From: Anseongella ginsenosidimutans
Lineage (GTDB): Bacteria > Bacteroidota > Bacteroidia > Sphingobacteriales > Sphingobacteriaceae
Direction of reading: 5' to 3'
DNA length: 64,000 bases
Assembly (NCBI RefSeq): GCF_008033235.1
Contig: NZ_CP042432.1
Location: 3,224,001 to 3,288,000, forward strand
Part shown: positions 30,553 to 61,639 of the stretch, piece after piece
How the letters are laid out: each line of letters opens with the position of its first letter
Position numbering within the stretch: position 1 is the first letter of the stretch
Made by a program: the position numbers and the translations under genes
The notes under the pieces: generated by a model
What the model saw: the letters and a program-made list of their open reading frames with translations, nothing else
Told to the model about the DNA's origin: nothing
Database searches by the model: none

Positions 30553-30965
30553 AACTAGCAAAAAGGCTTGTCGCTCCCGTTTTCGCGGGGGAGGAAAGTC
30601 CGGGCAACACAGAGCATCCTGCTTCCTAACGGGAAGGGTCCCTGTACCGAAGCTCCGGTTCATCCCGGCTTCAGCAGGGATACAGCAAGTGCCACAGAAA
30701 ACAGGTAGCCTTGCCTGACGTCGCTTGCGGCGCCGGCGGGTCATAGTGAAAACGCGGGGTAAGAGCCCACGGCTTCCTGCAGCAATGCAGGATGCAGGTA
30801 AACCTCAGGAGTTGAAAGGCCAAATAAACCGGGGCTAGAGGGCTGCTCGCCCGATCCCTGTGGGTAGGCTGATGGACCGTTCCAGCGATGGAACGGCTAG
30901 ATAAATGACAAGCAGTTCCCCGCCTCTGGCATGGGAATGAACAGAACCCGGCTTACTCTTTTGCT
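30553..30965 (+). ncRNA. rnpB: RNase P RNA (bacterial type A)
   Basis: The catalytic RNA that trims tRNA 5' leaders. The invariant block GAGGAAAGTCCGGGC (from 30591) follows at the usual distance from the 5' end, with CACAGAGCA after it; the ATAGTGAAAACGCGGGGTAA-type region and the 3' half ACAGAACCCGGCTTA are present. The 5' end AGCAAAAAG (30557) pairs with CTTTTGCT (30958-30965) as helix P1. The T-run after P1 serves as terminator. Length about 410 bases fits the family; exact ends are estimated. Confidence 0.93.
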
Positions 30966-30969
30966 TTTT

Positions 30970-32025
30970 TTATTTTTCCAGGTTTCGCGGGTTTATTAAT
31001 TCAATGAATCTGTCTTTGACCGCGACGGCCTGCCGGCTGTTCATCAGCAGATAGCGGTGCTTCCCATCCGGATCTTCCCTGAAATGGGTAAAACTGTTTT
31101 CATCTACTGAAACGGTGCCCGGAGGGCTCAGGTCAAAATAACCTTCGCTGCCTTCTACGGCATATAATACCGACGTAAGATCCCAGGTGGGGCGGTCATA
31201 AGGCATTTCAAGATAGCTTTCATAAGCAAGCACCAGCGGGTGCGGAGGCTCCGCAGGAAAGTCATTCTCTATACTGGAAGCAGGGTAAAGTACTTGTTCT
31301 CCCACTTCAAAAGGACTTACAATAATTTTCCCGGGCCAGGAGGCGAAAACTTCCCGTGCGGCTGCAGGGTCCTTCACGACATTGTATTCCACCTGCTTTT
31401 CCTTCCGGAAATTCCCCGCCATTATGCTCAGCAGTTTCACTTTCCGGGCAACCAGCTCGCGCCCGTTCAGCGTAGAATACTTATCGGGCGGCGAAGCCAG
31501 CAGACGGTCCAGGTTAGTGGAAAAACCAACAGAAATAATGGTGACCGAACTATCCGGCTGTTCTGACAGGATCTTACGGTACAGTTCTACCGAACCCGGC
31601 ACTTTTGCATAATTCTCCACGCTTCGTTTAAAAACAGGTTTTCCATCAACCGCGTATTCGCTGACAACCTGCGTATAATTCTTTGCATCGCCTTCGGAAT
31701 CCGCTCCCCCGATCACGTTTCCCAGGGGGATACGCGGGTAACCATACCAGGTGTTCATCAGGTCCAGGAACTGCACAGAATAAGGGCTGTTCTTATTGGT
31801 GCTTATTCCCAGTAATTCTATTTTGCCCCGATCCGCATATTTATAGAGCATGTCCAGCGCCAGGGCATCGTCGATGTCATTACCCATATCTGTTTCGAAA
31901 ATAACCTTGAGCGGAAGATCTTTCATTGCATTCCTGCTTTGTTGCTGCTGTTTGTAATTTGCGCAGCTATTCAACAACCCTATTATTACCGGGAGGCAGA
32001 AGGCTGCCATTCGTGTCATTTTCAT
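30970..32025 (-). CDS. Secreted nucleoside hydrolase-like lipoprotein
   Basis: A 351-residue protein. The ATG at 32025 gives a signal and lipobox (LLNSCAN); the frame is open to 32325 but those residues are unlike a protein start. The mature part opens with VIFETDMGNDIDDALALDML, the Asp-rich calcium-binding motif of inosine-uridine-preferring nucleoside hydrolases in its longer Bacteroidota form, and has the C-terminal DRPTWDLTSVLYA segment. It would split nucleosides or related N-glycosides outside the inner membrane. Its stop lies five bases after rnpB, on the opposite strand. Confidence 0.87.
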   Translation of the reverse strand: MKMTRMAAFCLPVIIGLLNSCANYKQQQQSRNAMKDLPLKVIFETDMGNDIDDALALDMLYKYADRGKIELLGISTNKNSPYSVQFLDLMNTWYGYPRIPLGNVIGGADSEGDAKNYTQVVSEYAVDGKPVFKRSVENYAKVPGSVELYRKILSEQPDSSVTIISVGFSTNLDRLLASPPDKYSTLNGRELVARKVKLLSIMAGNFRKEKQVEYNVVKDPAAAREVFASWPGKIIVSPFEVGEQVLYPASSIENDFPAEPPHPLVLAYESYLEMPYDRPTWDLTSVLYAVEGSEGYFDLSPPGTVSVDENSFTHFREDPDGKHRYLLMNSRQAVAVKDRFIELINPRNLEK

Positions 32026-35105: not shown

Positions 35106-35780
35106 ATGCTGAACGTGGATCTTGAACGGACTTCCATAAATCAACAAGTTACAGCTCCCCCTAAGGAGGTTCCTGCAGACGGCTCTTTCCTGCCGCTGAT
35201 GGAAGAATTCTATACCATCCAGGGAGAAGGCTATAATACAGGGAAAGCGGCCTATTTCATCCGCCTCGGAGGCTGCGACGTAGGCTGCCACTGGTGTGAC
35301 GTGAAAGAATCCTGGGATGCTGCCCTTCACCCCCTGACCGCGGCTGATACGATCGTTGCCAACGCCGCCCGGCACCCGGCCCGGGCCGTTGTGATAACCG
35401 GCGGCGAACCGCTGCTGTACAACCTTGATTATCTTTGTAATGAACTCCGGAAAAAAGGCATAAAGACCTTTATTGAAACTTCCGGCGCCTACCCGCTGAG
35501 CGGAAGCTGGGATTGGATCTGCCTTTCCCCTAAGAAATTCAAAAAACCCGTGCCGGAGATACTGAGCCTGGCCAACGAATTGAAAGTGATCGTATTCAAT
35601 AAAAGCGATTTCGGATGGGCCGAAGAACATGCTTCACATGTTTCGTCACTCTGCAAGTTATACCTTCAGCCCGAATGGAGTAAAGCTGAAGAAACAACCC
35701 CGCTTATCATTGATTATGTGAAGGAAAATCCCCGCTGGCAAATTTCCCTCCAGACCCATAAATTCATGAACATTCCCTAG
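35106..35780 (+). CDS. queE: 7-carboxy-7-deazaguanine synthase (radical SAM)
   Basis: A 224-residue radical-SAM enzyme making 7-carboxy-7-deazaguanine in queuosine synthesis. The iron-sulfur motif is CDVGCHWC (CxxxCxxC) after FIRLGG, followed by the SAM-binding TGGEPLLYN, and the family-typical end SLQTHKFMNIP. Its TAG stop (35778-35780) is the first three bases of the palindromic element that follows. No other queuosine genes are nearby. Confidence 0.93.
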   Translation: MLNVDLERTSINQQVTAPPKEVPADGSFLPLMEEFYTIQGEGYNTGKAAYFIRLGGCDVGCHWCDVKESWDAALHPLTAADTIVANAARHPARAVVITGGEPLLYNLDYLCNELRKKGIKTFIETSGAYPLSGSWDWICLSPKKFKKPVPEILSLANELKVIVFNKSDFGWAEEHASHVSSLCKLYLQPEWSKAEETTPLIIDYVKENPRWQISLQTHKFMNIP

Positions 35781-35940
35781 TGCTGCGATCACTAAATTGG
35801 TATACTTAAGCCGCCCTTATTTTTGTTCATGGCAATGCAAAAAAATGTGCGCATAGTGGTGCTATGTAAACATTTTTTTGCGCAGGCAGGGGCAAAAATA
35901 AGCAGGTTTGGAGTGTACGAATTTAGTGACCGCAGCACTA
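35778..35940. mobile_element. MITE-like 163-bp palindromic element
   Basis: The ends are 28-base inverted repeats (35778-35805 and 35913-35940) matching at 25 positions, each ending in TA. Inside, nested pairs CTTATTTTTG/CAAAAATAAG (35816-35825, 35893-35902), GCAAAAAAATGT/ACATTTTTTTGC (35837-35848, 35870-35881) and CATAG/CTATG (35852-35856, 35862-35866) make nearly the whole element one hairpin. It encodes no plausible protein. TA at both ends would fit a Tc1/mariner-IS630-type insertion, though TA is also part of the palindrome. Confidence 0.7.
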
Positions 35941-35979
35941 TTTACCGGCTGGCTTTCCGAAAAACACTATCTTTAGGCT

Positions 35980-37869
35980 ATGAAGCGCCTTCTTCTTCTA
36001 TTTTGCGTAAGTTTTACTTTTTTTCATACCCTGGCTCAATCCACTAACAGCAAAAAAGCGCTGCAGGCCTATGAAACAGCGCAGCAGCATATCGGAGGCA
36101 AGGAGTATACGCAGGCGCTTAACGAGCTTTATAAAGCTATCCAGGAAGACCCGGGGTTCATAGAAGCTTACCAGGTTTTAGGAGATATTTTTCGTATACA
36201 GGAGAATCATGTCAATGCGGTTACCAATTACCGGAAAGTGCTTGAGATCAAGCCGGATTTTTCCGCCCGGACCAGGTACGGCCTGGGGGTTTCCCTTTTC
36301 CACCTGGAAAAGTACGCCGAAGCCAAAGAACAATTGAAAAAATTCCTTCAGGACGGCAATCCCGGCAGCCAGGAACTAGCCCGGGTAAAAAAATATATTG
36401 CTAACTGCGGTTTCGCTGAAACAGCCATAAAGTCGCCGGTGGCCTTTGAACCTGTCAACCTGGGCGAAACCGTCAATTCAATCCATGACGAATATCTTCC
36501 CGCCATTACCGTAGATGGCAGCACCCTGGTATTTACGCGAAAAACTCAGCAGGGAGAAGACTTTTATACCAGCTCCCGGTCAGACAGTACCTGGTCCCGG
36601 GCCGTTTTCCTGAGCGAGGTGATCAATACCCCGGTGTACAACGAAGGCGCTGAAGCCCTCTCAGCCGATGGCCGGACCATTTATTTCACCATATGCGCCA
36701 AACCCGGAGGAATGGGAAGCTGCGATATTTATTACTCCCGTTTCAACGGCAGTCAATGGTCGGCACCGCTCAATCTTGGCCATCCTGTAAATTCACCCGC
36801 CTGGGAGTCCCAGCCTTCCCTCTCCCCAGACGGGAGAACGCTGTATTTTGCCAGCAACCGTGCCGGCACGCTCGGCGGCATTGACCTCTGGAAAAGCGTC
36901 CTCCAGGAAGACGGTAGCTGGAGTAAACCGGTTAATCTTGGCCCTCATATAAATACTCCCTGGGAGGAACAATCGCCCTTTATTCATCCCGACAACAAAA
37001 CCCTGTACTTTACTTCCGAAGGCTGGCCGGGCATGGGCGGAAAAGATATTTTCTTCAGCCGGAAAAAGGACGGCGAATGGCAAAAGGCCGAAAACATCGG
37101 CTATCCTATTAACACCGTAAAAGACGAAAGCAGCCTGATCATCAGCGCCGGCGGCAAAACTGCTTATTTTGCCTCCAACAGCCTTAAAGGGCTTGGAGCT
37201 TATGATCTTTACACCTTTGAAATGCCTCCGGAGGCGCGCCCGGGTTTCGTATCCTATGTAAAAGGCCTGATCTATGATGAAGCAACGAATGCGAAACTTT
37301 CGGCGCGCGTGCAGCTCATTAATACCGCGAATAAGGAGATTGTGTTTGAATCCGGCAGCAACGAACTCACTGGAGAATTCCTGGCGAGCCTCCCGGCCGG
37401 CAATAATTACGCTTTTAACGTCTCCAAGCCGGGTTACCTTTTTTACTCAGGGAGCTTTTTCCTCGAAGACCTGAGCGCTTCGGACCCTTTCCGGCTCGAT
37501 GTACCGCTGAAAAAAATCGCCAAAGGCGAAAAGATCGTCCTTCAGAACGTTTTTTTTGAAACGGATTCTTATAAGCTGAAGCCAGAATCTTATGCCGAAC
37601 TTGACAAGATCATCGAATTCATGAAGCAGAATCCCCGCGTAGTTATAGAGCTGTCAGGCCATACAGATGATGTGGGAACCGGTGAGCATAACCAGCAACT
37701 CTCCGAAAACAGGGCCAAAGCGGCCTATGCATACCTTGTCCGGGGCATTCTCCAGCCTGAACGTTTTGTCTACAAAGGTTACGGGGAAAGCCAGCCGCTG
37801 GCCGAAAACACGACTGAAGAAGGCCGGGCCAAAAACCGGCGGACGGAACTAAAGATCGTTTCTGAGTAA
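35980..37869 (+). CDS. PorE-like TPR/beta-propeller/OmpA-domain protein
   Basis: A 629-residue secreted protein: signal peptide (to LAQS, about 20), TPR repeats (about 25-140), a PD40/WD40-like propeller (about 165-415; repeated LSPDGRTLYFASNRAGTLGG units), a carboxypeptidase-regulatory-like domain (about 420-510), and an OmpA peptidoglycan-binding domain (about 520-629; ELSGHTDDVGTGEHNQQLS). This is the order found in PorE of the type IX secretion system, but the Cys lipobox of PorE is absent. It probably links peptidoglycan to an outer-membrane complex. A TATCTTTA box ends four bases before the ATG. Confidence 0.85.
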   Translation: MKRLLLLFCVSFTFFHTLAQSTNSKKALQAYETAQQHIGGKEYTQALNELYKAIQEDPGFIEAYQVLGDIFRIQENHVNAVTNYRKVLEIKPDFSARTRYGLGVSLFHLEKYAEAKEQLKKFLQDGNPGSQELARVKKYIANCGFAETAIKSPVAFEPVNLGETVNSIHDEYLPAITVDGSTLVFTRKTQQGEDFYTSSRSDSTWSRAVFLSEVINTPVYNEGAEALSADGRTIYFTICAKPGGMGSCDIYYSRFNGSQWSAPLNLGHPVNSPAWESQPSLSPDGRTLYFASNRAGTLGGIDLWKSVLQEDGSWSKPVNLGPHINTPWEEQSPFIHPDNKTLYFTSEGWPGMGGKDIFFSRKKDGEWQKAENIGYPINTVKDESSLIISAGGKTAYFASNSLKGLGAYDLYTFEMPPEARPGFVSYVKGLIYDEATNAKLSARVQLINTANKEIVFESGSNELTGEFLASLPAGNNYAFNVSKPGYLFYSGSFFLEDLSASDPFRLDVPLKKIAKGEKIVLQNVFFETDSYKLKPESYAELDKIIEFMKQNPRVVIELSGHTDDVGTGEHNQQLSENRAKAAYAYLVRGILQPERFVYKGYGESQPLAENTTEEGRAKNRRTELKIVSE

Positions 37870-59577: not shown

Positions 59578-59682
59578 CGCCGCGGGCGCGGGATACGTAT
59601 AACGCTCAGGCGGATTTTGGGCTTGCTACGCAAGCTAGCTAAAATCAAACGTCGCTTTTACACGTATCCCGCGCCCGCGGCG
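59578..59682. repeat. 105-bp palindrome with perfect 21-bp arms
   Basis: The arms 59578-59598 and 59662-59682 are exact reverse complements and very GC-rich (CGCCGCGGGCGCGG at the outer edge). The 63 bases between them also pair imperfectly (GATTTTGGGCTTG against CAAGCTAGCTAAAATC), so the whole forms one long hairpin. It may terminate the fur-purA-pabB-DUF3810 operon or be a dispersed repeat element. Confidence 0.8.
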
Positions 59683-61509: not shown

Positions 61510-61639
61510 AAATTATTCCACGTTTGGTGAGGCCGGATGAAGGTGTGCGATGAGCGAACGTCATGCTTTTGGGAATCCAAAAGAATGCCTTGAGCGAACG
61601 CACACCTTCATCCGGCCGCCCCTCCGTATGGAACAATTT
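61510..61639. repeat. 130-bp nested palindrome at the M48 peptidase 3' end
   Basis: The core arms 61531-61549 and 61599-61617 are perfect 19-bp complements; an inner stem CTTTTGG/CCAAAAG (61566-61572, 61577-61583) closes on GAAT; outer arms AAATTATTCCA (61510-61520) and TGGAACAATTT (61629-61639) match at 10 of 11. GAGCGAACG occurs on both sides of the inner stem. The right outer arm contains the peptidase stop codon. Confidence 0.78.

Follow-up and report, generated by a model that had tools for sequence, protein, structure and literature searches.

Palindromic, non-coding MITEs ended by TA are known from several bacteria, including RUP (linked to IS630-Spn1), ERIC/RU-1 and Correia/NEMIS (PMC2229807, PMC2759123), and for MITEs of this TA type both MITE-derived signal peptides and fusion with coding sequence have been reported (PMC2759123). 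In this study, we analyzed a palindromic element at the 3' end of queE in a 64-kb stretch of the Anseongella ginsenosidimutans genome (hereafter the window). The family to which it belongs resembles RUP, ERIC/RU-1 and Correia/NEMIS in being about 100-170 bp long and non-coding with terminal inverted repeats, in folding into a stable stem-loop with TA ends, and in being dispersed between genes. Unlike TA-type MITEs, it has outer ends that differ by copy and a common inner core nested in different arms, its copies crowd at stop codons, and the genome yielded no parent transposase. REP/REPIN sequences with their RAYT (PMC3733652, PMC3116915) are likewise palindromes that lie outside genes, in many cases close to where a gene ends; in contrast, the queE family is far longer, carries no foot tag and resides in a genome without a Y1 transposase. 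The Rickettsia palindromic elements (RPE; PMC2229807) are also long palindromic repeats, found between genes as well as in reading frames, whereas only two fragments of the queE family, of its W type (L003 and L005), lie in reading frames, both N-terminal and signal-peptide-like. Within the same phylum, MITECca01 of Cardinium (Bacteroidota; PMC9769881) is another lineage-restricted MITE, but, compared by description only, it is IS982-derived, has its parent element present and reaches 169 copies. We consider it likely that the queE element represents one copy of a MITE-like mobile repeat, palindromic, non-coding, non-autonomous and flanked by TA, whose distribution is lineage-restricted. Among MITE-like repeats the family is distinguished by new traits, namely its fusion to stop codons and palindromic arms that can be specific to the site.

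The queE gene occupies window positions 35106-35780 on the forward strand, and its stop codon, TAG at 35778-35780, is the start of the element. The whole nested palindrome, a W-type copy delimited by inverted repeat, fold energy, self-complementarity and repeat copies, spans 35778-35940 (forward strand) and lies in the gap between queE and a gene on the same strand (35980-37869) encoding TPR, PD40 and OmpA domains. Its left terminal inverted repeat (35778-35805, forward strand), which reads TAGTGCTGCGATCACTAAATTGGTATAC from position 35778, matches the reverse complement of the right one (35913-35940, reverse strand) at 25 of 28 positions. The left repeat starts with TA and the right one has TA at its end. 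Over the full 163 bp, 118 positions (72%) are self-complementary. The fold energy as DNA is -48.9 kcal/mol (z -9.8, none of 200 shuffles as good), and that of 35770-35950 as RNA is -88.2 kcal/mol (z -10.3); no other inverted repeat in the window comes near the element in length. With z-scores of about -10, these values bear out the original prediction of a 163-bp palindrome with 28-bp terminal repeats, and both the sequence and the open reading frame 35106-35780 confirm that its ends are TA and that the left TA falls inside the queE TAG. The element divides into a left W-type outer arm (35778-35817), which is common to L002 and L157 and partly to L003 and L005, a core (TATTTTTGTTC...GGGGCAAAAATA, 35818-35900) common to all other full copies, and a right W-type outer arm (35901-35940), all given on the forward strand. 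The only open reading frame across it is a 74-codon TTG frame that enters the next gene. Elsewhere in the window, positions 30555-30971 hold an ordinary bacterial class A RNase P RNA (237 bits).

A BLAST search of the queE element against the 4.32-Mb single-contig genome returned seven places, and a second query with the other arm type returned about a dozen further ones. The covariance model of the common core identified 11 full cores in the genome (E <= 6e-8). Altogether, the genome searches and the sampled stretches brought the family to 11 full cores, with about a dozen fragments besides. Grouped by their arms, the W type comprises the queE copy, L002 and L157, with the fragments L003 and L005, and the O type comprises L004 and L006, with fragments such as L090, L092, L093, L094, L099 and L110. 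Singles with arms of their own are L007, L097, L108 and L155, and the arms of L154 are very short. Ends within the family read TAGTGCTGYG, TATTTTTGTTCC, TAGAGGCTRTCTCAAAA and CCATTTCGCAATA; the dispersed copies are many, but common ends are confined to the members of the W group and of the O group. Recognition of most bacterial MITEs relies on conserved ends. With a conserved inner hairpin and differing ends, much of this family would be missed by end-based repeat finders. A single-copy or chance hairpin is ruled out by the shuffle z-scores together with the genome copies. Counting against the mobile-repeat reading, core-to-core identity is 64-91%, which makes the copies old and diverged, and several copies have TA at one side only. 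The two W-type arm/core fragments in reading frames (L003:1502-1572 and L005:1501-1535) encode the signal-peptide-like N-terminus of a DUF4249 lipoprotein in the first case and of a SusC/TonB-type receptor in the second.

Outside this genome, no DNA match to the queE element was found in 59 relatives, and the core model returned nothing in 58 of the 59, related elements being detected only in G044, a GC-rich Bacteroidota genome of another family. Furthermore, no such palindrome follows queE in the relatives with a readable stop, including the same-genus locus L171, in a comparison confined to loci retrieved in the queE orientation. For the same-genus genome, at 92% completeness and about 80% QueE identity, intergenic alignment was impossible. 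The element is therefore neither single-copy nor conserved at the queE 3' end in relatives, and these two observations support the mobile repeat that had been proposed from the sequence. In G044, one element type lies inside another (CTCCT-TA-GAAGCC...GGCTTC-TA-GTGCG), and the unoccupied counterpart of this nested site, CTCCTTAGTGCG, is present in L204 and L205. Judged by sequence, this case would fit either an insertion at TA that duplicates the TA or an element bringing one TA of its own, and the TA ends at queE would be compatible with TA insertion as well. L208 and L210 (G044:C59:2443-2672) represent two palindromic element types of similar architecture with many copies, one placed in the other at TA, and in several G044 copies one end is a TAG near a gene end. 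L220, L226 and L227 of G044 have the same terminal repeat and other inner sequence; they were rejected as autonomous elements, being flanked by ordinary genes only. The related cores in so distant a genome open the family to comparison.

The fusion with a stop codon recurs across copies, which, like the composite build of common core and differing arms, went beyond the original prediction. In 15 of 22 copies, the stop codon of an open reading frame of at least 80 codons lies at -8 to +11 nt of the element edge, a range picked after viewing the copies and with frames called by length only; the expectation is that 8.6% of permitted TA sites in the window are that near a stop (p about 1e-11). Five copies show an exact TAG fusion, with queE, DUF58, LUD, M20 peptidase and gamma-glutamyltranspeptidase genes; given that 6.8% of sites are TAs within stop codons, this number has a p of about 0.014. 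Either target choice or survival could produce the stop-codon pattern. A stop codon supplied by the element would explain how the repeat resides harmlessly at gene ends.

The piece that the copies have in common is the core of ∼81 bp. The cores of L097 and L108 are identical at 74 of 81 positions (91%), whereas their arms agree at 2 of 11 positions per side, which is chance level, and a common arm that diverged by paired changes is ruled out for this pair. In the O pair L004/L006, of equal core divergence, the left arms agree at 10 of 11 positions and the right arms at 5 of 11 when compared ungapped, L006 being off by one base there; the arms of L007 and L108 have 7 of 11 positions in common, possibly by chance. 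The arms of L097 and L108, although unshared, form perfect palindromes, 14-15 bp in length, with the stop codon of the adjacent gene inside them, and at L156 the centre of one core is occupied by an O-like element that has a core itself; for these reasons arms can belong to the site. By sequence, the arms of L097 and L108 can have come from the site in either of two ways, through insertion at the centre of a palindrome or through copying of the flank in inverted orientation. Another long nested palindrome in the window (59578-59682, 25-bp arms, z -7.8) belongs to a second, different family with the ring GCTCAGGC...AACATCGC. This ring was found at about ten places in the stretches read with copy-specific arms, whose own pairs have a mean pairing energy of -41.7 kcal/mol vs -22.8 kcal/mol for mixed pairs. 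A constant arm length of 14 nt as an enzyme signature was dropped, as it held for four copies only and the arms of the second family vary.

If the core inserts at the central TA of a pre-existing palindrome, single-type arms would be the halves of earlier gene-end palindromes and the target would be chosen by its hairpin. L007, L097 and L108 become perfect palindromes with zero loop once the core is removed at its TA, the W and O arms have cores at their centre, and the O-like element of L156, centred with its own core in another core, is of the same kind; however, 464 kb of genome held no intergenic perfect palindrome with arms of at least 13 and a loop of at most 4, and a palindrome around a stop codon would be odd as a pre-existing feature, which leaves centre insertion a possible but somewhat doubtful origin of these arms. 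That same lack of pre-existing palindromes in the 464-kb sample speaks for the arms having been made during or after insertion by inverted copying of the flank, that is, by hairpin-primed template switching. Site-specific arms that are not inherited with the core, their near-perfect Watson-Crick pairing, the adjacent gene's stop codon inside them and the same pattern in the second family point in this direction too. Yet clean cases are few, the core retains asymmetric mismatches that repeated copying would erase, and the nested copies show that centre insertion occurs as well, and we regard inverted copying as evenly balanced between true and false. If the arms were copied from the flank, they would document hairpin-primed inverted duplication as it occurs naturally in bacteria. 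A broader proposal, in which a class of Bacteroidota hairpins conserves only an imperfect core, gains palindromic arms at stop codons by inverted flank copying and comes to be enclosed in site-specific stems, would have two independent cases here, the GCTCAGGC...AACATCGC family and the queE-type core; it seems to us unlikely, though worth stating.

Selection on RNA pairing has to be weighed against the mobile repeat as well. In the alignment of 11 cores, changes on both sides were seen in 16 of 28 pairs, a number reached by none of 500 shuffles and compared with 2-6 in slid controls, in an alignment that was fitted to the model's structure and so favours covariation, with relatedness inflating the shuffle test. 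Such strong covariation would equally suit a selected RNA, and we counted it against the mobile-repeat reading. In the selected outer arms, several of which were picked as near-perfect, there were 198 Watson-Crick pairs, 1 G-U pair and 5 mismatches, and this paucity of G-U pairs suggests a process that symmetrises DNA at least as much as selection on RNA. A consensus scan for intrinsic terminators (G+C stem followed by a T run) gave no match inside the element, and Rfam gave none at the gathering score, the only two hits being microRNA hairpins far below threshold. An RNA role at gene ends is plausible on the sequence, and the element may be the hairpin ending queE transcription that had been suggested. 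An alternative account is that the element is a structured RNA of the 3' UTR (terminator, attenuator or mRNA-end stabiliser) under pairing selection, with copies left by old duplication instead of transposition. The two-sided changes in the core, the strong fold of the transcribed strand and the position at the gene end would agree with it, but the element has no terminator-like site or real Rfam match, it is missing from the same gene in relatives, a single G-U pair beside 198 Watson-Crick pairs is few for an RNA helix, and W fragments also occur within coding sequences (L003, L005), so that we consider this account improbable. Less probable by far is a REP/REPIN element moved by RAYT. A short palindrome near gene ends and the GTAG in several tips recall such elements; however, REPs measure 20-40 bp (PMC3733652), the GTAG here lies within the tip stem and not at one foot, and no Y1_Tnp gene was found in the genome, though control genomes respond to the same search. 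The REP/RAYT candidate was rejected on the absence of Y1_Tnp and would hold only had the enzyme been lost.

As for the mover of a MITE-like repeat, the genome contains no gene for a DDE_3 (IS630-type) transposase, no pair of matching ends was found around any gene that could mark a parent IS, and plasmid and phage collections gave no match to the element. For the DDE_3 and Y1_Tnp types tested, the original prediction that the window has no matching transposase holds genome-wide, and these searches gave no support to the Tc1/mariner-IS630 parentage proposed along with it. Under the mobile-repeat reading, the core would have moved as a unit into TA sites and ended up in the middle of longer palindromes (the W and O arms), which would then have spread with it. 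The present W copy may have inserted at the TA within the stop codon of queE itself, and TAG would have been kept because the element starts with G. Once transcribed, the element would fold into a highly stable hairpin within the queE 3' UTR, a 3'-end structure that is probably tolerated or of mild use. Joint change of the two palindrome halves may come from template-switch correction of hairpin DNA, from selection for pairing or from both, and the enzyme that moved the core may be gone from the genome.

A third long palindrome in the window (61526-61622) has perfect arms of 19 bp (z -7.5), and no full or convincing relative of it, taken as the repeat 61531-61617, was found in the genome. It has GCGATGAGCG in common with a palindrome in L136 that has 17-bp arms and lies 15 nt past a stop codon. 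In addition, GC-containing tandem-like repeat runs (AACTTTGAACTTTAAAC..., CCTCACCTCCGGTGTTGGCGGCTG...) adjoin palindromes at L246:5413-5490 and in the right flank of L007.
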